A DNA stretch of 34,959 bases from Silvibacterium sp. (GTDB lineage: Bacteria; Acidobacteriota; Terriglobia; Terriglobales; Acidobacteriaceae): positions 1 to 34,959 of the forward strand of contig JASHRS010000263.1 in NCBI GenBank assembly GCA_030037215.1. Reading direction: 5' to 3'. Below, in pieces: positions 230 through 29,768 of this stretch. Positions within the stretch are counted from its first letter, which is position 1, and each line of letters opens with the position of its first letter. The notes beneath the pieces were generated by a model. It saw only the letters and a program-made list of their open reading frames with translations, ran no database searches and was not told the origin of the DNA. A program made the translations under genes and the position numbers.

Positions 230-985
230 TCAGGCAAGGGGGTGACGATTCCAGTCTTTATAGATGAGGTATTTTGCCGGAGCCTTGCCGATCGCGCCGA
301 ACCACTGCGGACAATAGGGGGCCATCCAGATGAAGTCTCCGGCGGTGACGGGGTACCAATCTTCATCGAGCTTGTAAATGCCGCTGCCTTCGAGCATGAG
401 GAGCCCGTGCTCCATGACGTGGATTTCAACCATGCTCAACGCTACACCAGGCTGATAAGTCATGGTGTTTACAGCGAAATCGAAAGCGAAGGTATCGGGC
501 AGGAGGGCCCGCACGAGCAGATCGGGATTGTCCATGAGCGGCTGCGCGGGGATGTCCGGCTCGCGGCCGGTGAGCACGGCGGGGGCTTTCTCACGAGAAG
601 CCGTGTAGCGCTTCTCAAGCACCTCGACGCGAGCGCCATTCGATGATGTACAAAGATGTTTTGCGCCTTCGGGGATGTAAGCAAAGCTGTCTTTTAACAG
701 ATGCTTTTGGCTGCCATCGAGCGCGACGTCGATTTCTCCGTCAAGGACATAGAGAAAACGCTGACCAACGGCGTCGCCGAGCGTACCCCCCGGCTCGAAT
801 TCGGCGGTATATTGCGTGAATCCGGCGCCGAGAGCTGGTGAGACATGAACAACGACGGCAGTCTTTTCAGACCCAGGAATCTGCGTGCGGATGAACGTGT
901 CCGGAGTGTGAAGCAGATGGCTGGATTTGCGGACGCTTCGCGTGTGGCCAAGCTTATGCACTTGCTGTAATCTCTCCTGCGCCAA
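230..985 (-). CDS. allE: (S)-ureidoglycine aminohydrolase (bicupin)
   Basis: 251-aa bicupin-like ORF (GQRFLYVLDGEIDVALDG, HGLLMLEGSGIYKLDEDWYPVTAGDFIWMAPYCPQWFGA, C-terminal YLIYKDWNRHP) typical of AllE/YlbA; sits in a ureide operon. Start may be the internal GTG at 961, which overlaps the upstream stop. Confidence 0.92.
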   Translation of the reverse strand: MAQERLQQVHKLGHTRSVRKSSHLLHTPDTFIRTQIPGSEKTAVVVHVSPALGAGFTQYTAEFEPGGTLGDAVGQRFLYVLDGEIDVALDGSQKHLLKDSFAYIPEGAKHLCTSSNGARVEVLEKRYTASREKAPAVLTGREPDIPAQPLMDNPDLLVRALLPDTFAFDFAVNTMTYQPGVALSMVEIHVMEHGLLMLEGSGIYKLDEDWYPVTAGDFIWMAPYCPQWFGAIGKAPAKYLIYKDWNRHPLA

Positions 986-2222
986 CTGCGCGGTCGAATT
1001 CGTCGAGAAAGCTTATTCCCGCAGCGATTGCCGCCGCTACATCTTCGGTCAGCACAGCTTCGTCCGGATGATGGCTAAGGCCGCCGGGACTACGCAGGAA
1101 GATCATACCGGAGGGCAGATGCGGGGCCAACACCATCGCATCATGTCCTGCGCCGCTGGCCATGCGATGAAGGGGGTATCCGGCGCGGGCGACGGCGCGC
1201 TCGGCGATATCGATCATGCGAGGGTCCATGGGCACGGCGGATTGCTGATAGTTCAAGCTCCAGGTGAACCTGAGACCGCGTTTTGCTACGATCGCCTCTG
1301 CCGCTTCGAGAATCTGTGAGAGCGCATGGCTGCGAACGCTGTCGTCGGTGTGGCGCAGGTCGAGGCTGCAGCGGGCTTCGGCTGAGATTACATTGACTGC
1401 GCATGGGTACACAGCGATTTGTCCAACCGTGGCTGCGAGGCTGGGCGTTGCCAGCGCGAGAGCTTCAACCTGACCAATCCATTCTGCCGCGGCTGCGAGC
1501 GCATCGTACCGCTGCGCCATTGGCGTGGTTCCTGCGTGTCCAGCCCTTCCGAAAAATGCCATTGTGCCGCGGACTTGGCCGGTAATCGCCGTCACTACGC
1601 CGAGCGGAAGCGACAAGGTTTCGAGCTCAGGGCCCTGCTCGATGTGGAATTCGAGATAGCCGCAGGTATTACAGGTCAGACATGGAGCAAGCGCGTCAGG
1701 ATGCTCTGTTTTGAATTGTTCCAGGGCCTGTTGAAGAGTGAGGCCTGCTTTGTCTTGCTGCGCGAGCAACTCGGAGTCGAGTGCCTCTGTAACGGCCTTG
1801 CTTCCGATAAATGGCGCGCCGAAGCGAACGCCTTCCTCTTCTGAGAAGGCCACAACATCGAGAGCAAAATTGCACTTGCGTCCACGCTGCGCCTGGGCCA
1901 GCGACAGCGCAAGCAGGACACCGAGCACCCCGTCGTATGGACCGGCATTGGGTACCGTGTCAAAATGCGAGCCGATCACCAACCGGGGCGTGCCCAGGGG
2001 GGCATCGCCAGATGCCAGAATGTTACCGACGCAATCGAGGCACGGCGTGAGCCCTGCGTCTTCCATCCATTCGCGCAACTGTGCGTGAGCCTCTTCCATT
2101 GCGGGAGAAAGGAAGGTGCGGCATATTGTGCCCGGGGTCTCGGTGCAACGAGAGAGAATTGCGCACCGTTCGAGAACGACAGCCGCCGCGGTGGTAGCGT
2201 CAACTTGTGTCGCTTTGCTCAC
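954..2222 (-). CDS. allC: Allantoate amidohydrolase (M20 peptidase family)
   Basis: 422-aa ORF with GSHFDTVPNAGPYDGVLGVL, EEGVRFG, EFHIEQGPELE, GHAGTTPM and GAGHDAM motifs. GTG start overlaps the uricase stop (GTGA). Confidence 0.9.
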   Translation of the reverse strand: MSKATQVDATTAAAVVLERCAILSRCTETPGTICRTFLSPAMEEAHAQLREWMEDAGLTPCLDCVGNILASGDAPLGTPRLVIGSHFDTVPNAGPYDGVLGVLLALSLAQAQRGRKCNFALDVVAFSEEEGVRFGAPFIGSKAVTEALDSELLAQQDKAGLTLQQALEQFKTEHPDALAPCLTCNTCGYLEFHIEQGPELETLSLPLGVVTAITGQVRGTMAFFGRAGHAGTTPMAQRYDALAAAAEWIGQVEALALATPSLAATVGQIAVYPCAVNVISAEARCSLDLRHTDDSVRSHALSQILEAAEAIVAKRGLRFTWSLNYQQSAVPMDPRMIDIAERAVARAGYPLHRMASGAGHDAMVLAPHLPSGMIFLRSPGGLSHHPDEAVLTEDVAAAIAAGISFLDEFDRAVGAGEITASA

Positions 2223-3067
2223 TCCCCTCTCCGTACTGCGGCCTGGATGGAGCCATGTGGTTCATCCGTGGGCACAAAGATGTGGTTGGGATTGTCTTGA
2301 CCGAAGGGAGACAGGTCCACAAGATTGCAGTGCTTGTTTGGCATGGATAGATGGATGCAACAGATTTCGGGAGCAGATTCTAGGGCCGCTTTGCCCATGG
2401 CATAAAGCGTCTGCTGCACGGATTTGCTGTCGTGCTCAGCGAAGGTTACAAGCAGAGCGTCGCGAACGCCAGCGCGGATAGTGTCGAAATCGGATGAGGC
2501 ACGGGTGTGGGTCCAGTTTGCGGTCATTGCTGTGCCGAGAAGACGGTCTTCGGTTTCTTTGAGTGTCGTCAGTTTGTCTTTTTTGAAGTGAGAAAATGCC
2601 GACTTGGCCGTCTTGAGAATCGTAAGCTGATCGAGTCCGGAGATGATTTTGGCTGCGGCGCTGCGCGACTGCGTCGCGGTGACGGTGGCGATTTCGGGGC
2701 CAGTCTGGATAAAGGCTCTCGCATGCGTTTTTGCGCTCGTGCGGATGGGCGACCAGTTTATGCTGCGGATGCGCACTCCTGCGCCATCGATCTGCGGCTG
2801 TGTTGTGAGGAAGTGCGCGATGAGTTCGAGGGCAAATTCCTCGATGTTTTTCGCGCTTGAGCCACGGGCGAGAGAATAGACCGTGTTTTTCATCGTTTCT
2901 GTGGGCAGGATAAGGCCGTTGTCACCATCGAGGAAGCAGCTTGTGAAGTCGCCTGTAAGCCAGACCTCCACGTTCCACTCGAATACGCGATGTTGCGGCG
3001 CGCCCCGCTCGACTTTCATGAGCCGCACCCGTGACTTGCCGTATTGGTTTTCGCCCAGCTCGATCAT
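2219..3067 (-). CDS. Urate oxidase (uricase)
   Basis: 282-aa ORF; NQYGKSRVRLMKV, NVEVWLTGDFTSCFLDGDNGLILPTETMKNTVY and HLSMPNKH motifs typical of cofactor-independent uricase. Confidence 0.95.
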   Translation of the reverse strand: MIELGENQYGKSRVRLMKVERGAPQHRVFEWNVEVWLTGDFTSCFLDGDNGLILPTETMKNTVYSLARGSSAKNIEEFALELIAHFLTTQPQIDGAGVRIRSINWSPIRTSAKTHARAFIQTGPEIATVTATQSRSAAAKIISGLDQLTILKTAKSAFSHFKKDKLTTLKETEDRLLGTAMTANWTHTRASSDFDTIRAGVRDALLVTFAEHDSKSVQQTLYAMGKAALESAPEICCIHLSMPNKHCNLVDLSPFGQDNPNHIFVPTDEPHGSIQAAVRRGE

Positions 3068-3073
3068 TTTGAT

Positions 3074-3415
3074 TCAGCTGCCTCTGTAGGTTGAGTATGC
3101 ATACGGTGTAACCAGCAAGGGAATGTGATAGTGCGCGTCCGCGTCGCGCACATCAAACATAATTTCTATATAAGGATGAAGGGCAGTTATGCCAGATCGC
3201 GAGAAGTAGTTTCCGGTATGGAAACGGAGACGGTACGTTCCGGCATGCAGCGCAGCATCATGCGGCAGCAGATTGTGAAGGCGGCCATCCTTGTCGGTGA
3301 TGCCGGAGGCTAGGACGGTCCATTGGCTGCCCTGCTTCTGCTCAAGCTCGATTCTGACACCCGGAGCGGGCAGGCCGTGTGTGAGATCGAGAACGTGCGT
3401 GGTAATGGCGCTCAT
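3074..3415 (-). CDS. uraH: 5-hydroxyisourate hydrolase (transthyretin-like)
   Basis: MSAITTHVLDLTHGLPAPGV ... HYHIPLLVTPYAYSTYRGS, with the C-terminal YRGS signature. Start placed at the internal ATG overlapping the uraD stop (ATGA); the ORF track extends 4 aa upstream. Confidence 0.95.
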   Translation of the reverse strand: MSAITTHVLDLTHGLPAPGVRIELEQKQGSQWTVLASGITDKDGRLHNLLPHDAALHAGTYRLRFHTGNYFSRSGITALHPYIEIMFDVRDADAHYHIPLLVTPYAYSTYRGS

Positions 3416-3924
3416 AAGTTCATCCATTTTCTCAGGCGTAACGCAGTGATCTGCCGTTGCTGTTCGGCAGATTCGTGTAGTTCCGTCTTTTCGTCGTTGG
3501 CGAGACGATTTTGCAGGATTTCGAGCATTTCATACGCCGTCCTTCCTGAGGCACAGACTATATATATTCTGCCGAAGCGGTCTTCATAGCGTCGATTGCC
3601 TTCGGCGAGGGCGGTGAGAGGGGTGCTATCTTCCTCGAGGACGGTGCGCTGCTCTGCAGCTGACCATGTGGCGGATTGGTTGGAAATTTTTTCTGGAACA
3701 CTTCGTTCGCCGATGCGTGGATGCGCGGCGAAGGCTTCCAGCCAATCGGCTTCGTCGAGCTGCCACCATATTTCGTCTGCATGGCGGAGCACAGCAGCTT
3801 CGTCGGAAATGGGGCGATAACTAGCTAGGATCGACGCCCAGCGCTTCGATCCGCAGCAGGGCAGAATGACGGCGGCAGCTTCGTCGCTGTCCATCTCATT
3901 CCATGATGCAAGAACCGGGTTCAT
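3412..3924 (-). CDS. uraD: 2-oxo-4-hydroxy-4-carboxy-5-ureidoimidazoline (OHCU) decarboxylase
   Basis: MNPVLASWNEMDSDEAAAVILPCCGSKRW ... AHPRIGE ... FGRIYIVCASGRTAYEMLEILQNRLAND. ATG at 3924 overlaps the stop of the upstream xdh FAD subunit (ATGA). Confidence 0.93.
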   Translation of the reverse strand: MNPVLASWNEMDSDEAAAVILPCCGSKRWASILASYRPISDEAAVLRHADEIWWQLDEADWLEAFAAHPRIGERSVPEKISNQSATWSAAEQRTVLEEDSTPLTALAEGNRRYEDRFGRIYIVCASGRTAYEMLEILQNRLANDEKTELHESAEQQRQITALRLRKWMNL

Positions 3925-4793
3925 GCACCTGTCCCCGCCAGTGTGCGCAGACATTCTTCGAGGAGATTGCCTGCCACCTGCCTGCGATAGGTTTTTGTGG
4001 AGCGGATATCGTCGATCGGCGTGATAGCCGTGTCGAGCAATTTTCGAGATTCGACCAGAGGGATGCGATCAATCGGGCAACCGGCGAGCAATTGCTCGAT
4101 CTGCGAGAGTTGCAGTGGAATAGGGGCGATGCTGCCCATTCCAATTCTGATTGTCTGAATTCTTCCAAAGTCGATTTTGGCCTGCGCGGCAATGCAGACT
4201 TTGGAGATGGCCTGAGCATTGCGCGTGCCGACTTTGCGGGCGTAGGTGCACCAGCCAGAAAATTTGCGCGGCAGTTGGATGGCGTAGATCAGCTCGTCCG
4301 GGGCGATGACGGTGCGCTTGTAGCCAAGATGGCACTGCGTGTAGGGCAACCTGCGCGTGCCGCGCGCAGAGATCAGCTCGATCTCGGCTTCGCAGGCCAG
4401 CAGTGCCGGGGGCGAATCGGCCGCCGGTGAGGCGTTGGCAAGATTGCCTGCGATGGTGGCGCGGTTCTGGTTGGCAACTCCGCCAATCCAGCCGGCAGCA
4501 AGGGCAAGAAGCGGAAACTCGGCTGCTATTACGGGGTGAGAGCGAATTTGCGAGAAGGTGCAACCGCCGCCGATGGAGACTGTATCTTCATTAACGCGAA
4601 TTTCGCGCAATTCGGCAAGGTTCCAGAGGTTGATGAGGTTGCGCTGCTGGAGTTTGCCGGCGCTGAAGAGAACCATGATCTCGGTGCCGCCGGCGATGGG
4701 CAGCCATTTCCCACGATCACTTGCAAGCATTCCGAGCACAGACGAGAGACTGCCGGACGAAACCAAATTGAAGTGCTCGGGACAGGCTCTCAC
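3921..4793 (-). CDS. Xanthine dehydrogenase FAD-binding subunit (CoxM/XdhB-like)
   Basis: GGTEIMVLFSAGKL, SIGGGCTFSQI, GNLANASPAADSPPALLACEAEIEL motifs. GTG start at 4793 overlaps the 2Fe-2S subunit stop (GTGA). The longer 390-aa ORF in the track extends antigenically meaninglessly into the neighbouring gene. Confidence 0.92.
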   Translation of the reverse strand: MRACPEHFNLVSSGSLSSVLGMLASDRGKWLPIAGGTEIMVLFSAGKLQQRNLINLWNLAELREIRVNEDTVSIGGGCTFSQIRSHPVIAAEFPLLALAAGWIGGVANQNRATIAGNLANASPAADSPPALLACEAEIELISARGTRRLPYTQCHLGYKRTVIAPDELIYAIQLPRKFSGWCTYARKVGTRNAQAISKVCIAAQAKIDFGRIQTIRIGMGSIAPIPLQLSQIEQLLAGCPIDRIPLVESRKLLDTAITPIDDIRSTKTYRRQVAGNLLEECLRTLAGTGA

Positions 4794-5275
4794 GTTGCGG
4801 ATTTGCCTCTCTGTGCGCGCGAGGCCATTTCGACGGCTTCGAAGATGCGCATGTATCCGGTGCAGCGGCAGAGATTGCCGCTTAGCCCTTCGCGAATTTC
4901 TTCCGGGCTGGGGTGCGGGTTGTGGTTCAGCAAATATTTTGCAGCAACGATCATTCCCGGCGTGCACATGCCGCACTGCGACCCTCCATAGCGGAGAAAC
5001 GCTTCCTGAACGGGGTCGAGATTGGCGGGGCTGCCGAGGCCTTCGATGGTGATCACGCGAGAATTCGCAGCCTGCGCGACGGGGACGAGGCAACTGTTGA
5101 CGAGTTCGCCATTCAACAGAACGCTACAGGCTCCACATTCGCCTTCGCCGCAGCCTTCTTTTGTACCTGTAAGCTGGAGCTTTTCACGCAGAACGTCGAG
5201 CAGGCGCTCCATCGGATACGCTTCGATTGTGCGGTCGACTCCGTTTACGGTCATTGTGATGCGCTGGTTCGTCAT
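4790..5275 (-). CDS. Xanthine dehydrogenase [2Fe-2S] subunit
   Basis: 161 aa with CGEGECGACSVLLNG and QCGMCTPGMI ... LSGNLCRCTGY 2Fe-2S motifs. Confidence 0.96.
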   Translation of the reverse strand: MTNQRITMTVNGVDRTIEAYPMERLLDVLREKLQLTGTKEGCGEGECGACSVLLNGELVNSCLVPVAQAANSRVITIEGLGSPANLDPVQEAFLRYGGSQCGMCTPGMIVAAKYLLNHNPHPSPEEIREGLSGNLCRCTGYMRIFEAVEMASRAQRGKSAT

Positions 5276-7524
5276 GCCGAAACCTCTTCGCCAACCTGGA
5301 ACCTTGACCGCACAAGCTTCGCCATCACGTCTTCGGGAAGCAGCGGGATTGCGCAGAAATCTTCGATGGTTGCGTGGCTCACGGCGTTCAGAATTGCGGG
5401 AGCGGGACCGTCGATGGGCAGCTCACCGAGGCCTTTGGCTCCGAACGCGCCGTAACTGTAGGGGACTTCTTCGAAGTAGACGTGAATCGGCGGGATGTCC
5501 TGTGATGTGACAATGATGTAATTCGTCATCTGGTTATTGGACATATGGCCGTTCTGCCAGACGACTTTTTCATAAAGCGCATAGCCGATGCCCTGCGCGA
5601 TTCCGCCTTCGACCTGTCCGGTTGCAAGAACGGGATTGATGACCCTGCCCACTTCCTGCACGGCAACGAAATCGTCGACTGAGACATGATAATCGACGGT
5701 ATCGACCGCGACTTCAGCGACATAGACGGCCCAGGCGTATGCGCCATAGGCTTCGCCGTGATATGTGTCGTCGTCCCAATAGACATTCGGAGGCGCCTGA
5801 TAATGGCCTTCGGCGCAGAGAGAGCCGCGATCCTTCACATAGGCCGACGCAGCTTGCTGGAAATCGGCGGTTATATAGGGCTCGTGCAGATAACCGCTGT
5901 CGATCAAGATGCGCTTGATTTCGACCGCAGCTGAGGCGACCAGCTTGCCGACGACCATCGCTGTCCGCGAGGCGACGGTGGGGCCACTGTTCGGCACGAC
6001 GTGCGTATCGGGAGGAGCCATGCAGACAGCGTCATAGTCGATTCCCAAAGCTTCAGCCGCGATCTGGCAGAGAATCGTGTTTGTGCCTTGGCCGAATTCG
6101 GTGCTTGAGACAAGAACGCGCAGGTTGCCTTCAGGCGTGGCGTCCATTGAAGCGATGGAGCGCATGCGGCGTTCGCCGGAGCCGGTAAAACCGGCACCGT
6201 GAAGAAAAGCGGCGATGCCGATTCCCTTCTTGAGAGCGCGTCGAGGATTTTCCTGCTCGAAGCGAAGTTTCTTTTCGTGATAACTGGAGGCTTCGAGCGC
6301 ACGTGTGAGCAGATGATCGAGATCGACGCCCGGAGGAATCTCCTGACCGGTAGCGGTGGTCAGGCCGGGACGAAGAAAGTTTTTGCGGCGCACTTCTTCT
6401 GGAGTAAACCCAATGGCTGCGGCGATACGATCCATGTGCCGCTCGATGGCAAACAGGCTTTGTGGTGCTCCAAAGCCGCGGAAGGCTCCATGAGGCGGAG
6501 TGTTGGTTGCAAAAGCATGAGCGCGCACGCGTAGGCTGGGCCAGTAATAACAACCGCCTGCGTGGATGGTTGCGCGGGACAGAACAGTGGAAGAAAGCGT
6601 GGAGTAAGCGCCGCCGTCCAGAGCAAGATCGATTTCAGCAGCGAGCAAGGTTCCGTCTTTCGCAACGGCGGTGCGGTGACGCGTGCGCGATGGATGACGC
6701 TTGGTGGTTGCAGCCATGTCCTCGGCGCGATCATAGACGAGTTTGATCGGGCGGGCGGCCTTGCGCGCGAGCAGCGCAGCGTGGGCTGCGATCATGGAGG
6801 GGTAATCCTCTTTGCCGCCGAATGCACCGCCGGTCTCAACCTGTATGACGCGCACTTTGTCCTCGGGCAGAGCCATGAGGTGCATCAGAGACTTGTGAAC
6901 ATAGAAAGGGCATTGCATCGAGCCCCAGACGGTGACTCCGGCGTCTTCGGAGTAGTCGGCGATGACGCCGTTGTTTTCGATGTAGAGATGTTCCTGCGCG
7001 CCGGTTTCGTATTCGCCCTCGATGATATAGTCGGCGTGGGCCCAGGCTGCGTCCACATCGCCTTTTTCCATCAGATAAGACTTGAGAATGTTGTCCGTAC
7101 CCCAGACGACGGGATGCTGTCGTTCGCTTTCGGCTATGGAGTGGATGGAAGGCAGGGGCTCATATTCAATGCGGACGGACGACACTGCCTGCGGCAGAAG
7201 GTGGCAGTCAGGATGTGCGAGCAGCAAGATCGGCTCTTCGAAATGATTGACCATCTTCTCTGCAAGACACGGCCAGTCATTTTGAACAAGCGCGATAGAG
7301 TTGGAGCCGGGGATATCGGCAGCGGTTACAATGGTGAATTCGTGCCAGGGGATTTCGAGATCGAATTCGATTTTTGTAATGCGTCCGCGAGGGATGGAAC
7401 TGCGCACGGTGGCGCCATAGAGCATTCCGGGCAGCGCCATGTCATCGATATAGCGAGCCGTTCCGCACACTTTCGCCGCTCCTTCCTTGCGCACGCTCGA
7501 TGTGCCGACGATTCGCTGCTGCAA
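5272..7524 (-). CDS. Xanthine dehydrogenase molybdopterin-binding subunit
   Basis: 750 aa with GGAFGGKED, GAFRGFGAPQ, EFGQGTNTILCQIAAE and GAKGLGELPIDGPAPAI motifs. TTG start preceded by AGGAGG on the minus strand. Confidence 0.95.
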   Translation of the reverse strand: MQQRIVGTSSVRKEGAAKVCGTARYIDDMALPGMLYGATVRSSIPRGRITKIEFDLEIPWHEFTIVTAADIPGSNSIALVQNDWPCLAEKMVNHFEEPILLLAHPDCHLLPQAVSSVRIEYEPLPSIHSIAESERQHPVVWGTDNILKSYLMEKGDVDAAWAHADYIIEGEYETGAQEHLYIENNGVIADYSEDAGVTVWGSMQCPFYVHKSLMHLMALPEDKVRVIQVETGGAFGGKEDYPSMIAAHAALLARKAARPIKLVYDRAEDMAATTKRHPSRTRHRTAVAKDGTLLAAEIDLALDGGAYSTLSSTVLSRATIHAGGCYYWPSLRVRAHAFATNTPPHGAFRGFGAPQSLFAIERHMDRIAAAIGFTPEEVRRKNFLRPGLTTATGQEIPPGVDLDHLLTRALEASSYHEKKLRFEQENPRRALKKGIGIAAFLHGAGFTGSGERRMRSIASMDATPEGNLRVLVSSTEFGQGTNTILCQIAAEALGIDYDAVCMAPPDTHVVPNSGPTVASRTAMVVGKLVASAAVEIKRILIDSGYLHEPYITADFQQAASAYVKDRGSLCAEGHYQAPPNVYWDDDTYHGEAYGAYAWAVYVAEVAVDTVDYHVSVDDFVAVQEVGRVINPVLATGQVEGGIAQGIGYALYEKVVWQNGHMSNNQMTNYIIVTSQDIPPIHVYFEEVPYSYGAFGAKGLGELPIDGPAPAILNAVSHATIEDFCAIPLLPEDVMAKLVRSRFQVGEEVSA

Positions 7525-7610
7525 GCTCGCCTCCTGACCTTCATGGAAGGACGGTCCGACGCCGCGTATTCTGGCGAAAATTTTTCTGATTATACATCCG
7601 GTTTAAGCAG

Positions 7611-8951
7611 CTATAACGCGCATCCGTGCGGCTGCTCCGCAAATACTCCGCGGTGAAAGACCTGTCGACCGCACACATATGTAGATACGACCTGCCCGTG
7701 CAGTTTTTCGCCTACATAAGGAGACAGAGGATGGCGACAGCGCAGCATTTCCGCTGTGATTTGAAGCTCGGCGTTAGGATCGAAGACGACGAAGTCGGCG
7801 TCGTGGCCGGGTGCGATGGAACCCTTGCGCGTGTCGAGACCAGCGAGGCGCGCAGGGGATGTTGACATGAGGCGGGCAAGATCGGCGAGATCAAATCCAA
7901 GCTGCGGCATTCTGGTCCAGACGGCGGAAACAGCAACGGCAAGGCTCGAAATTCCGCCCCATGCTGTCTGGAAACTGCCTTCGTCCAGGCGCTTTAGCTC
8001 GAGTGGGCATGGAGAGTGATCGGTGTTGATCATGTCGATGATGCCATCTTTAAGCGCCTGCCAGAGAGCGTCACGATTATCGCGACTGCGGATGGGCGGG
8101 GCGCATTTTTGCAATGTGCTGCCGTCGGGGATTTCTTCTGCAGCGAAGTATAAGTAGTGGGGGCAGGTCTCGACGGTGACGGGTAGACCTTCCGCACGAG
8201 CATCACGCAGCATGTCAAGGGCGTGGGCTGTCGCGAGATGGACGATATGCAGGCGAAAGCCGAACTCGCGGCAGAGATTGAGCATGAGTTTTATTGCTTC
8301 AGTTTCGGCTGCATCGGGTCGTGAGGCGAGCCAGGTTGCGTATTTGCGCCAGTCAGCATTGCTGAGCGACTCGGCGGCGCGCATCAACGGTTCGGGCAAT
8401 TCGGCATGCACGAGCAAAGGCAGGCCGGTTGCACGGAGATGAGGTGCAGCGATGCGCAACTCGGCTTCATCGACGCGGAAGAACCCGTCGATGCCCGGTT
8501 CGGCGAGGAAGCATTTGAATCCGCGCACACCAGCAGCTGCGAGCGGCTCGATATCTTGGGTGTTGTGTCCGGAGACGCCACCCCAGGCAGCCCAGTCGAC
8601 TAGGCATTTTCCCTGCGCTGCTTCCCACTTTGCCTCAAGCGCGGCGACGGTAGTGGTTGCAGGGAGGCAGTTCAGCGGCATGTCGATGAGGGTGGTGTAG
8701 CCTCCTGCGGCAGCGGCGTGAGTGGCGGTAGCAAAGCCTTCCCACTCAGTGCGGCCGGGCTCGTTGATGTGGACGTGCGCGTCGACGAAGCCGGGCAGTA
8801 AAGCGTAATCGCCCAGATCGTGGATTTCAAAACCGGACGGGACGTGAGATGGCGCGCAGAGGTCCACGATCTTTTCATCACGGACGAGGACGGCTGCAGG
8901 ACGGATTCGGTCAGCGATTACGACCTGCGTAGAGACAAATGCGTGTGCCAT
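7611..8951 (-). CDS. allB: Allantoinase (dihydroorotase-like amidohydrolase)
   Basis: GFVDAHVHINEPGRTEWEGF, GVRGFKCFLAEPGIDGF, ETCPHYLYF, DHSPCP, GHDADFVVFDP. Start placed at ATG 8951 (MAHAFVSTQVVIADRIRP) rather than the ORF-track start at 9023, which would overlap guaD. Confidence 0.94.
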   Translation of the reverse strand: MAHAFVSTQVVIADRIRPAAVLVRDEKIVDLCAPSHVPSGFEIHDLGDYALLPGFVDAHVHINEPGRTEWEGFATATHAAAAGGYTTLIDMPLNCLPATTTVAALEAKWEAAQGKCLVDWAAWGGVSGHNTQDIEPLAAAGVRGFKCFLAEPGIDGFFRVDEAELRIAAPHLRATGLPLLVHAELPEPLMRAAESLSNADWRKYATWLASRPDAAETEAIKLMLNLCREFGFRLHIVHLATAHALDMLRDARAEGLPVTVETCPHYLYFAAEEIPDGSTLQKCAPPIRSRDNRDALWQALKDGIIDMINTDHSPCPLELKRLDEGSFQTAWGGISSLAVAVSAVWTRMPQLGFDLADLARLMSTSPARLAGLDTRKGSIAPGHDADFVVFDPNAELQITAEMLRCRHPLSPYVGEKLHGQVVSTYVCGRQVFHRGVFAEQPHGCAL

Positions 8952-8994
8952 ACTGGCATTACTTTCTCGTGTACCCCGAGGAGAAGCAAGTCTT

Positions 8995-9474
8995 ATGTCT
9001 ACAGAGTCGCACCTTGCTTTCATGCGCCGTGCAATCGCGCTGGCAACGGAAAATGTCCGATCAGGGCGCGGCGGGCCTTTTGGAACCGTGATTGTACGGG
9101 ATGACGAGATTCTGGCAGAAGGGGTAAACCTGGTTACGCTGACGAATGATCCTACGGCTCACGCGGAAGTGAATGCGATCCGCGAGGCCTGTCACAAGCT
9201 GGGCATGTTCAGCCTGAACAACTGCACGCTCTTCACCAGCTGCGAGCCTTGCCCGATGTGCCTTGCGGCGATCTACTGGGCGCGTATTGACCGCATTTAT
9301 TACGCCAATACTGCCGCTGACGCAGCCCGGATCGGGTTTGATGACGCGTTCCTGTATCGCGAATTGCTTCTGCCGATCGAGCAACGGTCCACACCGACGA
9401 CGCAACTCCTGCAGAGAGAGGCGAAAGAGAGCTTCGCAGAGTGGGAGAATTCGACAATTAAGATTCCCTACTAA
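8995..9474 (+). CDS. guaD: Guanine deaminase (CDA-fold nucleoside deaminase)
   Basis: GGPFGTVIV, HAEVNAIR, TSCEPCPMCLAAIYWARIDRIYYAN, GFDDAFLYREL, resembling the small B. subtilis-type guanine deaminase. Divergent from the purine operon. Confidence 0.88.
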   Translation: MSTESHLAFMRRAIALATENVRSGRGGPFGTVIVRDDEILAEGVNLVTLTNDPTAHAEVNAIREACHKLGMFSLNNCTLFTSCEPCPMCLAAIYWARIDRIYYANTAADAARIGFDDAFLYRELLLPIEQRSTPTTQLLQREAKESFAEWENSTIKIPY

Positions 9475-22955: not shown

Positions 22956-24605
22956 TCAACTGCCCAGCGACGCTTTCAGATAGGCGAGTAGAGCATCTCC
23001 ACGAGGAGTTCCGTAGCCTGTACAGGCATTCCAACCCTTGCCAGCGCGATACAAGCCGTTGTCTCCTTTGAGCACTGGCCGTAAAGCGGTGGCACAGTCT
23101 CTGCCGAGTCGATAGATGTGCGGGTGAAGATGCCCACAACGCCGGCCAAGGGCTTGATTGAGTCTGGCGATTAGCGCAGCCCACATGGGAGCCACGGAAC
23201 TGGTGCCAGCAGAGGTGAAGGTCCGCCCTGCGATCATCATTTCGCATCCATAACGTGGGTCAGCTAATCCGGCTACATCAGGTACTCCACGGCCAGGCTT
23301 GCCTCTGGATCTATTGGGAACATGCGCGTCTTGTTGCCATGCCGGCAGAGGGAAAAGCTTGCTCACTCCGCCGCCGGATATACCTTTGATGCCGAAATGT
23401 GTTGCATTCCACACGACTTCTTCGCTGATGCCCTTTGCGCCAATCTTTCCACTGGTTCCACCACAGCCGAGACAATGAGGACTGCTGGCGGGATAGTTAA
23501 CCGACGGCTCCCCGTCCGCCGATCCATTGAGCGCGCCGGCATCACCTGACGAGGCGCATACGGTTATTCCTAGATGTGCAGCCTCGCAAAGCACGCCTTC
23601 CACGGCTTTCAACTCGGCGCTCGAGAGAGTGTGCTCCGGCATGCTCCAACTGATGGAGAGAACCCCGGGCCGATGACGCTCGTCATGCACAGCGCAGCTG
23701 ATGGCATGGTAGAGCCCTTGTTCATCGCTTGACGCAAAATAGACGACGATGTGCGCAGCGGGTGCAAGCGCAGCAAGAATCTCAAGATCCATGGTTACTT
23801 CAGCGGTGCACTGTGCGGCAACGAACGGATCGCTCTGCACCGTCTTCGCGGCGAGGGTGAGCGTACCGCTGATCACATCCAGAAACTCGTTAACGGAGCG
23901 GTGACTCGCTGGCCTGTTGGCGCCACTACCTACCTTGACGACGGTGATGCGTGGCACAGCTACTCGGTTGTGCGCGCAGAATTGCTCGATGTCCTTGAGG
24001 TGGAATCCGCCGCCGAATTCAATGAGTCCGATGGTTTGGCTGGAGCCATCGAACTTTGGCGGAAAGTGGTACGCGCGGCTAAGGTCCTGCATGCGCGCCG
24101 ATGTCGCGTGACAAGGCACCGCCGAGCTTCGGCGCGGCCATGCGTGCCGCAGACTATGCAGTCCTATCACAGCTTCGACTATTCTGTTCCATCCCTCCGG
24201 AGTATGGAGCGGATGTACGGGAGCGAAAAATGTATGACCATCGAGCTCGAACTCCTCGAACCGGGTCTTGAAAGCTCGCTCTATATTAGCCGCGCTACCC
24301 GCGAGCCGCATGCTGCGCCGATCCGCAGCCGCTTCCATGATATCGAGGTTGAATTTCCGGGCGAAAGATTCAATGAGTTCGATCGCTCCCCTGATGACTC
24401 CATAGTTCTGCCGCAGTTCTGCGTGCCTCAGCTGTGATTGCTGGTGAGCAGAGGCTTTGCCGCGTTTGTGAGCTGATAACTGGGAATGTGCCGATGGGAG
24501 GGGAGCCTTTGGCGCAAAAACTACGGTGAAGCTGATGCGGTGGCTGGGATCAAGCCGACCAACATGGAAAGCTGCCCTGGGGATCGTGATATCTTTCAGG
24601 ACCAA
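22956..24605 (-). CDS. S53 family peptidase (sedolisin/kumamolisin-like) with propeptide
   Basis: 549 aa; propeptide-like N-terminus (RFEEFELDGHTFFAP), AEVTMDLEILAALAP (Glu-xxx-Asp), VCASSGDAGALNG, TSAGTSSVAPMWAALIARLN catalytic Ser, C-terminal GTPRGDALL. TTG start is uncertain. Confidence 0.88.
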   Translation of the reverse strand: MVLKDITIPRAAFHVGRLDPSHRISFTVVFAPKAPLPSAHSQLSAHKRGKASAHQQSQLRHAELRQNYGVIRGAIELIESFARKFNLDIMEAAADRRSMRLAGSAANIERAFKTRFEEFELDGHTFFAPVHPLHTPEGWNRIVEAVIGLHSLRHAWPRRSSAVPCHATSARMQDLSRAYHFPPKFDGSSQTIGLIEFGGGFHLKDIEQFCAHNRVAVPRITVVKVGSGANRPASHRSVNEFLDVISGTLTLAAKTVQSDPFVAAQCTAEVTMDLEILAALAPAAHIVVYFASSDEQGLYHAISCAVHDERHRPGVLSISWSMPEHTLSSAELKAVEGVLCEAAHLGITVCASSGDAGALNGSADGEPSVNYPASSPHCLGCGGTSGKIGAKGISEEVVWNATHFGIKGISGGGVSKLFPLPAWQQDAHVPNRSRGKPGRGVPDVAGLADPRYGCEMMIAGRTFTSAGTSSVAPMWAALIARLNQALGRRCGHLHPHIYRLGRDCATALRPVLKGDNGLYRAGKGWNACTGYGTPRGDALLAYLKASLGS

Positions 24606-24645
24606 ATGATTTCTCGCTCAGAATGGGAACGATTTGGTGTTGCTC

Positions 24646-26964
24646 TTAGACCTCGAATTTCTCCCAGAGCGAGCGGGTATGCTGCAGCAGGCTCTCAAAG
24701 CCTGAATGGTGCCGAACATTTGCCAGCAGTGGGTCCCAACGCCTGATCATAGGATAATTCACGAAACCCTTGTTGACGGCTTTCTGAAGCCATGCGAATG
24801 CAAGGTCATGCTTCTTCAGCAACGAATAACACTCGGCCAGTACCCAGGTATAGTGCGGATCGCGCGAGGTGATCTCCTCGAAGTCTGGCGTGCAGAGATG
24901 TTCGACGGCAGGTGCATCTCCACGGAGAGCGGCCGTCATGATACCGCCAAGCCGGCAGAAATAATGATCTCCGCATTGGCGCTGCAATGCTTCGAACTGT
25001 GCAATCGTCTCTTCTGTACGACCGTCAAGGGCGAGCGCCTGACCGCGAAAGAACAGAAGCATGGCGTTGGTTGGATCCAGCCTGATTGCATCATCGAAGG
25101 ACGGGAGCGAGTCCGCAAATTCCCCGGCCATGACCGATATCAGGCCAGGCACAAACCTGTATGTTGGCGTGAGCGGATCAATCTCCATGATCCTGCGCGC
25201 TAACGGCATCACTGCATGAGCCTTTCCGCTCAACGCGCAGATGGCTGAGTACCAGCTCAGGCTGTCGGAGTCATTCGGGTCAGCGGCAAGAGAGCGCTTA
25301 AGCAGCAGCGCCGACTCCTGCATATTGCCCTCCTGCAGGCTGATCAGCCCCTTCAGCCTGAGGACATGTGCAGACGTAGGTTCCAGCTCGGCTGCTTCGG
25401 CCGCGCATTTCCTCGCACGAATAAGATGTTCCGGGTCGGAGCTGATGCCGGCATTCACATACTGCCAATAGACCTGACCCCTGGTAGAGAGCAGCAGAGC
25501 ATTTCTTCCTACTACACGCTCGCCCATTTCAAGATACTCAAGAGCGCGGTCGAGTCCTTCGCGCGAATAGTTCAGAATTTCGTGCTTGGCTTTTACGTAA
25601 AATTGAACGGCGCGCGCGTCGGGCAGCGCACGAGCTTCAAGTTGCCGCTTCTCCTCCGGGCTGAGGGTCACCTTTAATGCTGCAACGATCTGCCTGGAGA
25701 TAGTCTCCTGAATAGTAAAGATATCTTCCGTCGTTCCGCGGTATTTGTCGCCCCAAACCAAGGAGTCGCTACGCGGATCGACCAACTGCGCGGTCACGCG
25801 TATGACTCTCCCGCCCTCTTTCTTTGCTGTCTCTCCTGAGGGCCCCAACCGCACTGTCCCTCGCAGAACGTAGCGGACGCCGAGTTCGTCGGCAAGTTGT
25901 GCCAGCGACTGAGTCGAATTTTTCAGCCGCATGGACGATGTACTGGAGATCGTACGTAGCGAGTGCACACCGGAGAGATCTGTAATGATCTCATCGGTGA
26001 GACCGTCGCAAAAATCCAGCGCTTCCTCATCCTGCTCTGCGGTAGTAAATGGAAGAACCAATATCGATCTATCCCTCGATGCTGCGGCCATCCGCAACTC
26101 TTCAGGCACAGCGAACTTTTGCGTGGTGCGGAACAGATGGCCTTCGGAAGGCGAGCGGAGGGCGTCAAGAAATTCACCAGCAGTCTGAAATCGCCGCTGA
26201 ATCTCCTTGTCCAGAGCTCTTTCGATCACTTCTTCCAGATGAACAGGGATTTGAGAGCCATACTCCCGAAGACGTTTGGGCCGTTTCTGGAGAATTCCCT
26301 CAAAAACGCCATAGGAGCTTTCGGCTGAAAACGGATGTGCTCCAGACAGCATTTCATAGAGCACGACGCCGGAAGACCATAAGTCCGTCCGCGGGTCGAG
26401 CGTCTTGCAAAGAACCTGTTCGGGAGACATATAACTAACGGTACCGATCATCTCCCCGGTCGCCGTGAGCCCCTGGCTCCCTCCGATATCTTTTGCGAGG
26501 CCGAAGTCCACGATTTTCACGACGCCGTTCTCGCAGATCATCAGGTTTGCTGGCTTAACGTCGCGATGAATCACGCCACGTGCATGGGCGTGTTCGAGTC
26601 CGGACAGGAGCTGCCCGGCAATGTCCATGGCCAAGTCAGGATCAAGAGGTCCATTCTTCAACTTTTGAGCCAGCGTCTCCCCATGGTAGAAGGCCATGAC
26701 GATGACGACTTCTTCGCCGGGGAGTTCCTCAACCTGATAAATGCTGCAGATATTGGGATGGTCGAGTTGTGATGCGGCTCGTGCTTCCTGGATCAGCCGC
26801 GCACGGGAAGTTGCGCTTCCGTTGGTAGCTGGAGACAGTGATTTCAGTGCAACGAAGCGCATCAGCCGCGTGTCCTTTGCTTTCCAGACAACGCCCATGC
26901 CCCCGGAGCCGATGCGCTCAAGAACCTCATAGTGCGCAATCCTCGACCCCTCAAGCGCCGGCAT
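24646..26964 (-). CDS. Serine/threonine protein kinase with TolB-like domain and TPR repeats
   Basis: YEVLERIGSGGMGVVWKAKD, GVIHRDVKPANLM, VDFGLAKDI, SYMSPEQ; central SILVLPF..CDGLTDEIITDLS..VRYVLRGTVR; C-terminal TPR-like repeats. ATG at 26964 chosen over the ORF-track start (27030); overlaps the upstream gene by 14 bp. Confidence 0.93.
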   Translation of the reverse strand: MPALEGSRIAHYEVLERIGSGGMGVVWKAKDTRLMRFVALKSLSPATNGSATSRARLIQEARAASQLDHPNICSIYQVEELPGEEVVIVMAFYHGETLAQKLKNGPLDPDLAMDIAGQLLSGLEHAHARGVIHRDVKPANLMICENGVVKIVDFGLAKDIGGSQGLTATGEMIGTVSYMSPEQVLCKTLDPRTDLWSSGVVLYEMLSGAHPFSAESSYGVFEGILQKRPKRLREYGSQIPVHLEEVIERALDKEIQRRFQTAGEFLDALRSPSEGHLFRTTQKFAVPEELRMAAASRDRSILVLPFTTAEQDEEALDFCDGLTDEIITDLSGVHSLRTISSTSSMRLKNSTQSLAQLADELGVRYVLRGTVRLGPSGETAKKEGGRVIRVTAQLVDPRSDSLVWGDKYRGTTEDIFTIQETISRQIVAALKVTLSPEEKRQLEARALPDARAVQFYVKAKHEILNYSREGLDRALEYLEMGERVVGRNALLLSTRGQVYWQYVNAGISSDPEHLIRARKCAAEAAELEPTSAHVLRLKGLISLQEGNMQESALLLKRSLAADPNDSDSLSWYSAICALSGKAHAVMPLARRIMEIDPLTPTYRFVPGLISVMAGEFADSLPSFDDAIRLDPTNAMLLFFRGQALALDGRTEETIAQFEALQRQCGDHYFCRLGGIMTAALRGDAPAVEHLCTPDFEEITSRDPHYTWVLAECYSLLKKHDLAFAWLQKAVNKGFVNYPMIRRWDPLLANVRHHSGFESLLQHTRSLWEKFEV

Positions 26965-27664
26965 GCTGCAACTCCCTTCCCTGCTCAACTGGTGCGCAAC
27001 GCTGCAGCAACTCCTCAAACATCGCTGCAAGCCCGTCGATCGCGGTGAAGGCGCACATACCTATAGCCCGCTCCTGTTCTGCGTCCAACTCCATGCAGTC
27101 GAGAGTGTGGTTCAGATCGGCCAAGTGCGAGGGGTCGTCTTCGGCATGCCTCAGCAGGCAGCGGAAAGCGGTTGCCGGGACTCTCGACCGAATCCTGATG
27201 TCTTCGAGCTGCGACGCTAAGGGAGCGTACCCTTCCATCAAGATCAGGTACCCCATGACTGCGACGGGATGTACATGCGTCATCCAGAAATACTGGGCTC
27301 CGATAAGATTTACTACAGCCGTGCACGGCTGAGAATGAAGAATCTCCAGCTCCTTAAAGCCCAAAGTTTGAATGTCGTCTCGAAGCCATTGATCATGTCC
27401 GCGTTCCTCTTCGAGATGCACTTCCATGTATGCGGCGAGTGTGTTCGCTACAAGATCTGCCGTTGGCCGAGCAAGCGCCAAATCGCGCGCCACGCTCATC
27501 AGAGTAATTGAATTGCGCATAATACAATGCGCCTGAAGAAGAAATTCGGGAAGCAGGCTAGGCAGATCGCGATGATTCCAAAAGAGATATGTCGACGCAA
27601 ATAGCCGACGCTCAGCCAGGTGGATTTTTCCCCATAGAACGTCGCTGTTCGTCGGGCCTTCCAT
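26951..27664 (-). CDS. Heme-oxygenase-like / iron-containing redox enzyme family protein (putative diiron oxidase-like, HDO/TenA-PqqC fold)
   Basis: 237 aa predicted all-helical; HLEEERGHDQWLRDD (E-xx-H), ILMEGYAP and HAEDDPSHLADL (H-xxx-D-xx-H) match the metal-ligand spacing seen in heme-oxygenase-like diiron proteins. GGAG ribosome-binding site upstream. Confidence 0.6.
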   Translation of the reverse strand: MEGPTNSDVLWGKIHLAERRLFASTYLFWNHRDLPSLLPEFLLQAHCIMRNSITLMSVARDLALARPTADLVANTLAAYMEVHLEEERGHDQWLRDDIQTLGFKELEILHSQPCTAVVNLIGAQYFWMTHVHPVAVMGYLILMEGYAPLASQLEDIRIRSRVPATAFRCLLRHAEDDPSHLADLNHTLDCMELDAEQERAIGMCAFTAIDGLAAMFEELLQRCAPVEQGRELQHAGA

Positions 27665-27765
27665 CGTTTTACTCCAGCGTTTAAGCTGCTCCTGCTCGGC
27701 TTTGCCTCAGATTCGGAATATATTTTGAACCAAGAACCCCTGGCAAAGTTTCCAGAACAAGACCG

Positions 27766-27794
27766 ACGTGACGGGAACAGAGTGACCGTCACGT
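27766..27794 (-). terminator. Intergenic hairpin after the 63-aa peptide gene (possible attenuator or processing site)
   Basis: ACGTGACGG (27766-27774), 11-nt loop, CCGTCACGT (27786-27794): perfect 9-bp stem beginning 18 bp past the peptide stop codon; no clear U-tract. Confidence 0.5.
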
Positions 27795-27812
27795 GGTTAA
27801 AACCAGTACGTT

Positions 27813-28004
27813 TCAGATGCCGATATTTGGCCGCAAGTGTTCTTTGCCTGCCGGAGCCTCCCCCATTTTATGGCGTAATTTGACCAAGGTATCGACTTCT
27901 TCGTCGGACATCTTGTCGATCAACTGTTTATCGTTATCAGAAAAGTGCTCACCAGCAATGACTCCGGCTTCGTGAAGACGGTCAAAGTTGCTCTTGCTAC
28001 CCAT
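27813..28004 (-). CDS. 63-aa small protein, leader-peptide-like (possible RiPP precursor; resembles the aroma-sacti cluster type domain by eye)
   Basis: MGSKSNFDRLHEAGVIAGEHFSDNDKQLIDKMSDEEVDTLVKLRHKMGEAPAGKEHLRPNIGI; strong GAGGGGG Shine-Dalgarno just upstream of the ATG on the minus strand; no competing ORF on the other strand with better support. Confidence 0.6.
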   Translation of the reverse strand: MGSKSNFDRLHEAGVIAGEHFSDNDKQLIDKMSDEEVDTLVKLRHKMGEAPAGKEHLRPNIGI

Positions 28005-28139: not shown

Positions 28140-29768
28140 ATGGCGGATACCGCATCACACGCGTTTTCTCTAAATCTCGTACACGACGGAAAAGAGACCA
28201 GGATTGCCGCGCAGACGCCATTCACGATTGGGCGCTCTCCTGAAATGAAGCTGGTGCTGCCCTACCCTTACATTTCCCGCCGTCATGCCGAGATTCATTT
28301 TGAGCCGTCGAGCCAACGCCTGGAACTGATTGCACCAGGCAGCGAGTGCTTTGTGAACGGAGTTCGCGTAACTCGCCATTTGCTTTCCCCTGGAGACCAG
28401 ATCCGCCTCGGCTTCCTGCAAGGGCCGCTCCTTTCCATCGTGGAGAATACTTCCAGTCACTCTTCTCTCCGTACTACCTTAGGTCACCTGAAGGAGCCCT
28501 CGGGCTCGGAAGCCGATTTGACCAAGCTCAGCTGGTTTGTAGAGGCTGCCCGTCGGCTCAACGACGTCGGGGCGGTACAAGAGATTCTGGAGGCATTGGT
28601 TGACACGACGCTCGAACTGACGCGAGTTGAACGAGGATATGTCTTTTTGAGAAATGCTGCTGGGGAACTGAGGCTTGCGGCAGGACGCAGTCATGCAGGC
28701 GAAAGCCTGTCGGACAGTTCCACCTTGTCGCACACGGCGATTCGACAAGCCATTGAAAGCGGCTCGGAATTCATTGTGACCGATACACTTTCCGCGGGAG
28801 CTGCTGCACCTACCCACAGTATTGTTGCCCAGAGCATCCGCGCAATTATCTGTATACCTTTGCGGAAGCACTCGAGTGAGCGTACTTCGAAAGATTCACA
28901 GGTGCTTGGGGTTCTATATCTCGATAGCCGACAGCAGAGAAGTCGGCTCACCCGGCTGGATAACGACTTGCTACGAACCATTGCGGCTGAGGCAACTCTG
29001 CTTGTGGAGAATGCGACGCTGGCAGAAGCCGAGGCCGCTGCCCGACGCTACCGCGAAGAACTGATCATTGCGTCGGAGATTCAGCAGGGCCTGATGTCAG
29101 TGAGAATTCCCTGCCTCTCATTTGCGGAAGTCGACGCACACAGCATCCCGTGCAAAGGGATCGCTGGTGATTTCTATGATGTTCTATGCCATAACGACGC
29201 GTTATATGTCGTGGTTTCCGATATTTCAGGAAAAGGCGTTTCGGCTGCAGTGCTTGGGTCTACGCTGCAAGGCCTGATTCACGGCCAGATTCTCTCCGGG
29301 TTGTCACTGCCTGAGATCGCGCTTTTCGCCAACAAATACATCTGCGACAAGAACATTCGAAAGTACGCCACGCTGTTTCTTCTCCGACTGACCACTGATG
29401 GTGTCGCGGAGTATGTGAATTGCGGCCATGTCCAGCCCCTGCTGCACCGCACTGTTGACCAGTCGCCTGGTGCTACTACCGCACCTGCGAGTTGCAATCT
29501 GCCAGTCGGCCTGTTTGCGGATGCCACGTACACCTCCGAAATCCTGCAACTCGAACCTAGGCAGCGGCTGTTCGTCCTGACGGACGGAATTACGGAAGCC
29601 GAAGATCCGTCGGGGCAGTGCTTCGGTGACGGTCGGCTGCAGTCACTGATATCGAATGGTGCAATGCTCAGCCACATTTTTGATGAACTCAGGACGTTTA
29701 CTGTAGGGGCAGAGCTCGAAGACGACTGCACGATGGTCGAGATCCGTTATCGCCCGCAGCAGCAATAG
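28140..29768 (+). CDS. FHA-GAF-PP2C (SpoIIE-like) serine phosphatase
   Basis: 542 aa; FHA domain (FTIGRSPEMKLVLPYPYISRRHAEIHF), GAF-like centre (LDSRQQRSRLTRLDNDLLRTIAAEATLLVENA), SpoIIE domain (GIAGDFYDVL, VVSDISGKGVSAAVL, NCGHVQPLL, LTDGITEAED, DDCTMVEIRY). Confidence 0.92.
   Translation: MADTASHAFSLNLVHDGKETRIAAQTPFTIGRSPEMKLVLPYPYISRRHAEIHFEPSSQRLELIAPGSECFVNGVRVTRHLLSPGDQIRLGFLQGPLLSIVENTSSHSSLRTTLGHLKEPSGSEADLTKLSWFVEAARRLNDVGAVQEILEALVDTTLELTRVERGYVFLRNAAGELRLAAGRSHAGESLSDSSTLSHTAIRQAIESGSEFIVTDTLSAGAAAPTHSIVAQSIRAIICIPLRKHSSERTSKDSQVLGVLYLDSRQQRSRLTRLDNDLLRTIAAEATLLVENATLAEAEAAARRYREELIIASEIQQGLMSVRIPCLSFAEVDAHSIPCKGIAGDFYDVLCHNDALYVVVSDISGKGVSAAVLGSTLQGLIHGQILSGLSLPEIALFANKYICDKNIRKYATLFLLRLTTDGVAEYVNCGHVQPLLHRTVDQSPGATTAPASCNLPVGLFADATYTSEILQLEPRQRLFVLTDGITEAEDPSGQCFGDGRLQSLISNGAMLSHIFDELRTFTVGAELEDDCTMVEIRYRPQQQ

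Follow-up and report, generated by a model that had tools for sequence, protein, structure and literature searches.

Four adjacent minus-strand genes in the soil acidobacterium Silvibacterium sp. (Acidobacteriota; assembly GCA_030037215.1, contig JASHRS010000263.1) were analysed as a candidate peptide-modifying locus within a stretch of 34,959 nucleotides, hereafter called the window. The genes encode a precursor-like peptide, a protein resembling heme-oxygenase-like dimetal oxidases (HDOs), a Ser/Thr protein kinase (STPK) and an S53 peptidase, and their order and coordinates agree with a preliminary description of the locus:

27813-28004, minus strand: precursor-like peptide, ATG start, 63 aa
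26951-27664, minus strand: HDO-like protein, ATG start, 237 aa
24646-26964, minus strand: STPK with C-terminal tetratricopeptide repeats (TPRs), ATG start, 772 aa
22956-24605, minus strand: S53 peptidase with pro-domain, accessory gene, TTG start

The spacings reported there were also recovered, namely a 148-bp gap with a hairpin between the peptide and HDO genes, a 14-bp overlap (26951-26964) between the HDO and STPK genes, and a 40-bp gap between the STPK and S53 genes. The STPK gene is probably co-transcribed. An alternative TTG start of the kinase gene at 27030 is likewise open, and the TTG start of the S53 gene gives an N-terminus collinear with that of its close homologue in the related genome G004.

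The peptide matches the NCBIfam model NF045560 ("aroma-sacti cluster domain"), a precursor domain of the type found in ribosomally synthesised and post-translationally modified peptides (RiPPs), with 31.6 bits against a cut-off of 30, and weakly matches NF045559 (StsA-related sactipeptides); both models match 10/10 aligned peptide relatives. The dN/dS of 0.06 between the peptide genes of two close loci (L042 and L044) indicates purifying selection, and the window peptide gene differs from that of G004 at 18, 10 and 38 first, second and third codon positions, respectively. Based on this ratio and this pattern of differences, the peptide is a real gene. AlphaFold2 predicts three helices within residues 6-47 of the head (residues 1-47) and an unstructured tail (residues 48-63, GEAPAGKEHLRPNIGI) that is conserved and ends with RPNIGI; the pLDDT is 78-91 in blocks across residues 1-50 and 53 in the tail. 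The heads share the pattern L..AG[VF]...L..eE...L.., and the tails are clade-specific yet conserved, with a hydrophobic last residue in 77/77 peptides, the motif PN[FI].[VI] in 15 of the 19 acidobacterial peptides and AG/GG-[AL]LF in 55 of the 58 others. The window peptide contains no cysteine, and the family as a whole almost none.

A hidden Markov model built from seven peptides and run over 11,409 open reading frames (ORFs) matched 33 of them at E<1e-3, and 30 of these 33 lie within 600 bp of an HDO gene. Of the remaining three, one is the second of two Edaphobacter aggregans peptides, one is a peptide encoded next to a GoxA/GoxB pair, and one is an ORF located 1.8 kb from the HDO gene in locus L084. 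Some variants of the family were also observed. In the Edaphobacter aggregans locus (L043, 8959-10705), the full-length HDO gene is preceded by a pair of peptide genes and a fragment of an HDO gene, which suggests a tandem duplication. At locus L036 (G366:C65, 8614-11889), a family peptide sits beside GoxB-like and GoxA/LodA-like (cysteine tryptophylquinone oxidase) genes without an HDO gene, and the peptide domain may therefore serve other oxidative maturases. Several acidobacterial peptides (L017, L035, L037, L041 and L046-L048) have a long Lys/Ala/Pro-rich extension (KKAPAKKAAKK...) before the head, similar to histone H1.

The 237-aa protein matches Pfam PF14518 (E 3e-8), and its AlphaFold2 model (pLDDT 91) has a heme-oxygenase-like helical fold, with 3dde, Chlamydia CADD (8vag) and UndA (6p5q) as the closest Foldseek matches (TM about 0.64-0.78). 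The 3H/3C ligand pattern described for HDOs (PMC13108848) can be assigned to the putative set E87, H90, E144, H173, D177 and H180; all six residues are kept in 85 of 86 relatives, and the remaining one has D177E. The protein is thus classified, from fold prediction and ligand pattern, as an HDO with a predicted dinuclear metal site. Neither a homologue of the radical S-adenosylmethionine (SAM) enzyme of Streptomyces (see below) nor a YcaO was found in the window's own genome assembly, whose completeness is about 89%, so that no linked tailoring enzyme other than the HDO is evident. Among eight HDO-bearing acidobacteria, a weak distant radical SAM match occurs in two and a YcaO in one. A genetically encoded candidate precursor adjoining a predicted modifying enzyme is the arrangement expected of a RiPP locus.

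The conservation of the gene set was examined in 101 genomes, comprising the window's own and 100 relatives. An HDO gene occurs in seven of them, each time with the peptide gene just upstream and the kinase gene just downstream (7/7), and a separate search with NF045560 returned these seven loci and one weak, seemingly spurious extra. Among 18 distinct acidobacterial loci, which were picked by HDO similarity, the peptide gene is adjacent to the HDO gene in 18/18 and the STPK gene is present in 18/18, directly downstream on the same strand in 17 and convergent in L060; the S53 gene is found in 5/18. The refuting condition named in the preliminary description, a lack of co-occurrence in related genomes, was therefore checked and did not refute its proposal. 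In G004, the four genes and an additional FHA-SpoIIE gene have the same arrangement as in the window, and the LacI, aldolase, DinB and Nuo genes of the window flanks were not found around that locus. The recurrence of the four-gene order between unrelated flanks, together with that of peptide, HDO and STPK across the phylum, indicates a gene set beyond chance. The HDOs nearest to that of the window in the HDO tree are from Acidobacteriota.

A wider scan with the HDO alignment as query, taking one genome per species, gave 80 loci. In the 69 non-acidobacterial loci, where counts are inflated by similar Streptomyces species and some loci are truncated, we found a radical SAM enzyme in 55, a cyclase-AAA-TPR protein in 56, an S8 subtilase in 49, a GAF protein in 50 and a family peptide in 59. 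The usual order in Streptomyces and its kin is radical SAM/SPASM, HDO, peptide, nucleotide cyclase-AAA-TPR, S8 subtilase and GAF protein; the Streptomyces peptide gene overlaps the end of the HDO gene, and its product scores 74.7 bits against NF045560 and carries the tail ...PEVQAHxxxAGGALF. A TIGR03975 RiPP B12-radical-SAM C-methyltransferase adjoins the HDO in L060 and L097 (597 and 500 bits), and two radical SAM enzymes accompany the HDO in a Burkholderiales locus. On a Sinorhizobium fredii megaplasmid (L154, NZ_CP035038.1, 2511-8696), the HDO gene is divergent from that of a 67-aa peptide and is accompanied by YcaO, TfuA and cyclase-TPR genes, in agreement with the heme-oxygenase-like genes published for Sinorhizobium TfuA clusters (PMC8120280). 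The radical SAM, TIGR03975 and YcaO-TfuA partners of the HDO relatives constitute a diagnostic and independent RiPP context. In Myxococcus (L074, 4643-10639), two HDO genes flank one peptide gene, and a kinase-cyclase-AAA-TPR fusion links the acidobacterial kinase to the actinobacterial cyclase.

A TPR-bearing signalling protein is thus a near-constant part of these loci, being a Ser/Thr kinase in Acidobacteria and a nucleotide cyclase in Streptomyces, and this link with signal transduction is kept more regularly than the protease. The window STPK matches PF00069 (E 2.6e-51) and TPR models and contains the HRDVKPAN and DFG motifs; of the STPK-TolB-TPR architecture proposed initially, the kinase and TPR parts were recovered with Pfam and the TolB part was not. 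Close relatives of the STPK (E<1e-120) occur in 4 of the 101 genomes, always inside the peptide-HDO cassette. A further signalling gene, assigned with Pfam, lies divergently beside the cassette:

28140-29768, plus strand: divergent FHA-GAF-SpoIIE (PP2C-type) phosphatase

This phosphatase is a possible counterpart of the STPK, and its gene also adjoins the cassette in L016 (70% identical), L021 (58%), L042 and L044. Homologues are present in 45 of 61 relatives, with the copies inside cassette loci being the closest; because they are so widespread, the link to the cassette is weak and the phosphatase was not accepted as a dedicated partner. An empty-site test around the FHA-SpoIIE gene found no flanks shared with the window in the same-genus genomes G001, G003 and G007.

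The S53 protein matches Pfam Pro-kuma_activ and kumamolisin (1t1e, E 6e-82), and alignment with 1t1e shows conserved positions for the catalytic E/D and S and the oxyanion-hole D. The predicted Ser-Glu-Asp residues, oxyanion Asp and pro-domain are those of a sedolisin/kumamolisin. Given its presence in only five of the 18 acidobacterial loci, the protease proposed as part of the system stands as an accessory component and was rejected as a core gene. The S53-bearing loci are scattered inside one acidobacterial clade of the HDO tree, consistent with an old gene that was often lost. In Actinobacteria the S8 subtilase fills the protease slot, and the use of different protease families fits a trimming role without proving trimming. 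In two loci (L020, 12705-13499; L021, 6781-7545), a 254-264-aa protein with the motif FNCCTSAAAGHM is encoded directly after the kinase in the place of S53. It appeared papain-like by eye, and was not counted as a peptidase since no sequence match was found in Pfam, NCBIfam or the PDB.

Collectively, it is probable that the locus is a kinase-coupled, HDO-centred, RiPP-like peptide-maturation cassette, in which the HDO would oxidise the conserved C-terminal tail of the peptide. The initially proposed pairing of a leader-type peptide with an oxidative metalloenzyme receives strong support from the NF045560 match, the HDO assignment, the adjacency in all 18 acidobacterial loci and the RiPP enzymes near HDO relatives. 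The broader suggestion of a peptide-modifying or kinase-regulated system gains support from the co-conservation of the genes, their family memberships, the conserved ligands and the RiPP context of the relatives. On these grounds we infer that the HDO may act on the window peptide, with the tail as the candidate site, and that the protease and kinase may have roles in the process. The helical head may be the recognition part, to which the HDO (or the TPR region) would bind. The HDO would assemble a dinuclear iron (or Fe/Mn) site that the tail could reach, and HDO and O2 would then oxidise a tail residue; if VarO and MboA are taken as models, the likely outcomes at or near the C-terminus would be hydroxylation, desaturation, or oxidative chemistry on C-C/C-N bonds. 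Trimming of the head or tail by the S53 peptidase may follow, and the STPK-TPR protein, possibly with the divergent FHA-SpoIIE phosphatase, would control or sense the process.

Two characterised proteins show that HDOs are capable of this type of step. VarO is a heme-oxygenase-like protein in the biosynthesis of the RiPP thiovarsolin, and its deletion points to dehydrogenation of the peptide-derived product (PMC6511847). By description and context rather than sequence, the window HDO resembles VarO in being encoded with a RiPP-type precursor, and its Sinorhizobium relative, like VarO, has YcaO and TfuA as neighbours. However, the YcaO-TfuA pair that marks thiovarsolin-type clusters is linked in the Sinorhizobium relative only; the window contains neither of these two genes nor a repeat precursor, its precursor belongs to another family, and a kinase is part of the set. 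MboA, the mangotoxin HDO, desaturates the tripeptide Leu-Ala-Arg and has the iron ligands His89 and Glu143 (PMC13185094), which match H90 and E144 in position by numbering, unaligned; in contrast to the window peptide, its substrate is made by ATP-grasp ligases instead of the ribosome. CADD, UndA and 3dde share the fold and the 3H/3C-type ligand pattern, but they are 12-16% identical to the window HDO and have other substrates and contexts. The peptide head belongs to NF045560 and is weakly similar to NF045559, whose names prompted a sactipeptide assignment; this identity was rejected because sactionine bonds are impossible here, the peptide having no Cys and the window no radical SAM sactisynthase. 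For the kinase, the nearest parallel is the kinase/cyclase fusion family TIGR03903 of thiazole/oxazole-modified microcin (TOMM) systems, also a signalling protein of RiPP-type systems, and the Myxococcus relative combines kinase, cyclase, AAA and TPR; the window protein contains kinase and TPR only, with no cyclase, and falls below the family cut-off.

Several observations weigh against the proposed maturation cassette. The AlphaFold2 confidence for the peptide is moderate, and no leader cleavage motif was recognised in it, a folded head and a conserved disordered tail being seen instead. The tail is short and near-invariant inside clades, unlike many natural-product RiPPs. Furthermore, 13 of the 18 acidobacterial loci have no S53 gene, and no transporter linked to the cassette was found within the window, which is unusual for an exported product. 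The kinase/cyclase coupling and the missing transporter lead to the guess that the peptide, once modified, may have an intracellular function. As a tentative and less probable extension, these loci could represent an undescribed HDO-only RiPP class in at least four phyla, whose oxidised, non-exported peptide would serve within the cell as a cofactor or as a signal for its own TPR kinase or cyclase, forming a ribosomal-peptide second-messenger system.

The same features could reflect a signalling module in which the HDO and peptide together would sense O2, iron or the redox state and feed the TPR kinase or cyclase; the peptide would then not be secreted but would serve as a regulator or as a signal within the cell. 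After the peptide and HDO, no partner is as constant as the TPR signalling protein (STPK and cyclase-AAA-TPR counts above, and the Myxococcus fusion), GAF proteins are common in the wider loci, FHA-GAF-SpoIIE genes accompany several acidobacterial ones, the window cluster has no transporter, and TOMM systems have a similar fusion family. A signalling module alone leaves the recurring radical SAM, C-methyltransferase and YcaO-TfuA partners unexplained, and we regard it as rather unlikely as the whole explanation; it is compatible with peptide modification and may complement the maturation cassette instead of excluding it. An HDO that alone makes a small metabolite, for example by CADD-like self-sacrificing p-aminobenzoate synthesis or amino-acid oxidation, with the peptide as an accessory or chaperone subunit, would accord with CADD being among the closest folds and with small molecules being the substrates of most validated HDOs (PMC13108848). 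This is improbable in view of the near-invariant tails, the recurring RiPP-type neighbours and the failure to find small-metabolite pathway genes shared between clades. Least probably, the genes may be mere neighbours with separate functions, a reading favoured by the S53 and FHA-SpoIIE genes, whose distribution is patchy or extends widely outside the cassette. For the peptide, HDO and STPK, this is largely refuted by their conservation across acidobacterial genera while flanks change and by the confinement of all close STPK relatives to the cassette; it is possible still for S53.

In a literature search limited to open-licence papers, neither a description of these gene sets nor a paper on "aroma-sacti" was found. 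Within that scope the combination appears undescribed, as first suggested. The peptide domain had been catalogued beforehand by NCBI curators, apparently from other clusters. A review from 2026 counts more than 10,000 HDOs, of which only about a dozen have been functionally validated, and cites one ribosomal-peptide-modifying example, VarO (PMC13108848, PMC6511847). In the present loci, which span Acidobacteriota, Actinomycetota, Myxococcota and Pseudomonadota, an HDO is tied to a defined peptide as its candidate substrate. Since the HDO seems to be the sole tailoring enzyme in Acidobacteria, peptide oxidation by an HDO is testable with two genes, and the constant kinase/cyclase coupling makes a regulatory role of the peptide testable.

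The region between the peptide and HDO genes was also analysed:

27665-27812, minus strand: peptide-HDO intergenic region, 148 bp, with a hairpin and a promoter-like element

The hairpin at 27766-27794 is a perfect 9-bp inverted repeat (ACGTGACGG/CCGTCACGT) absent from 100 shuffles. No T-run follows the repeat, which did not score as a terminator. The same gap in relatives contains strong hairpins of unrelated sequence in some and no hairpin in others, leaving a conserved RNA element unsupported. With the promoter-like element at 27746-27717, the gap is a possible point where peptide and enzyme transcript levels would diverge. Elsewhere in the window, positions 230-9474 hold an apparent purine/ureide catabolism cluster, judged by eye, with genes for allantoate amidohydrolase, xanthine dehydrogenase subunits, and allantoinase-like, OHCU decarboxylase-like and guanine-deaminase-like proteins.

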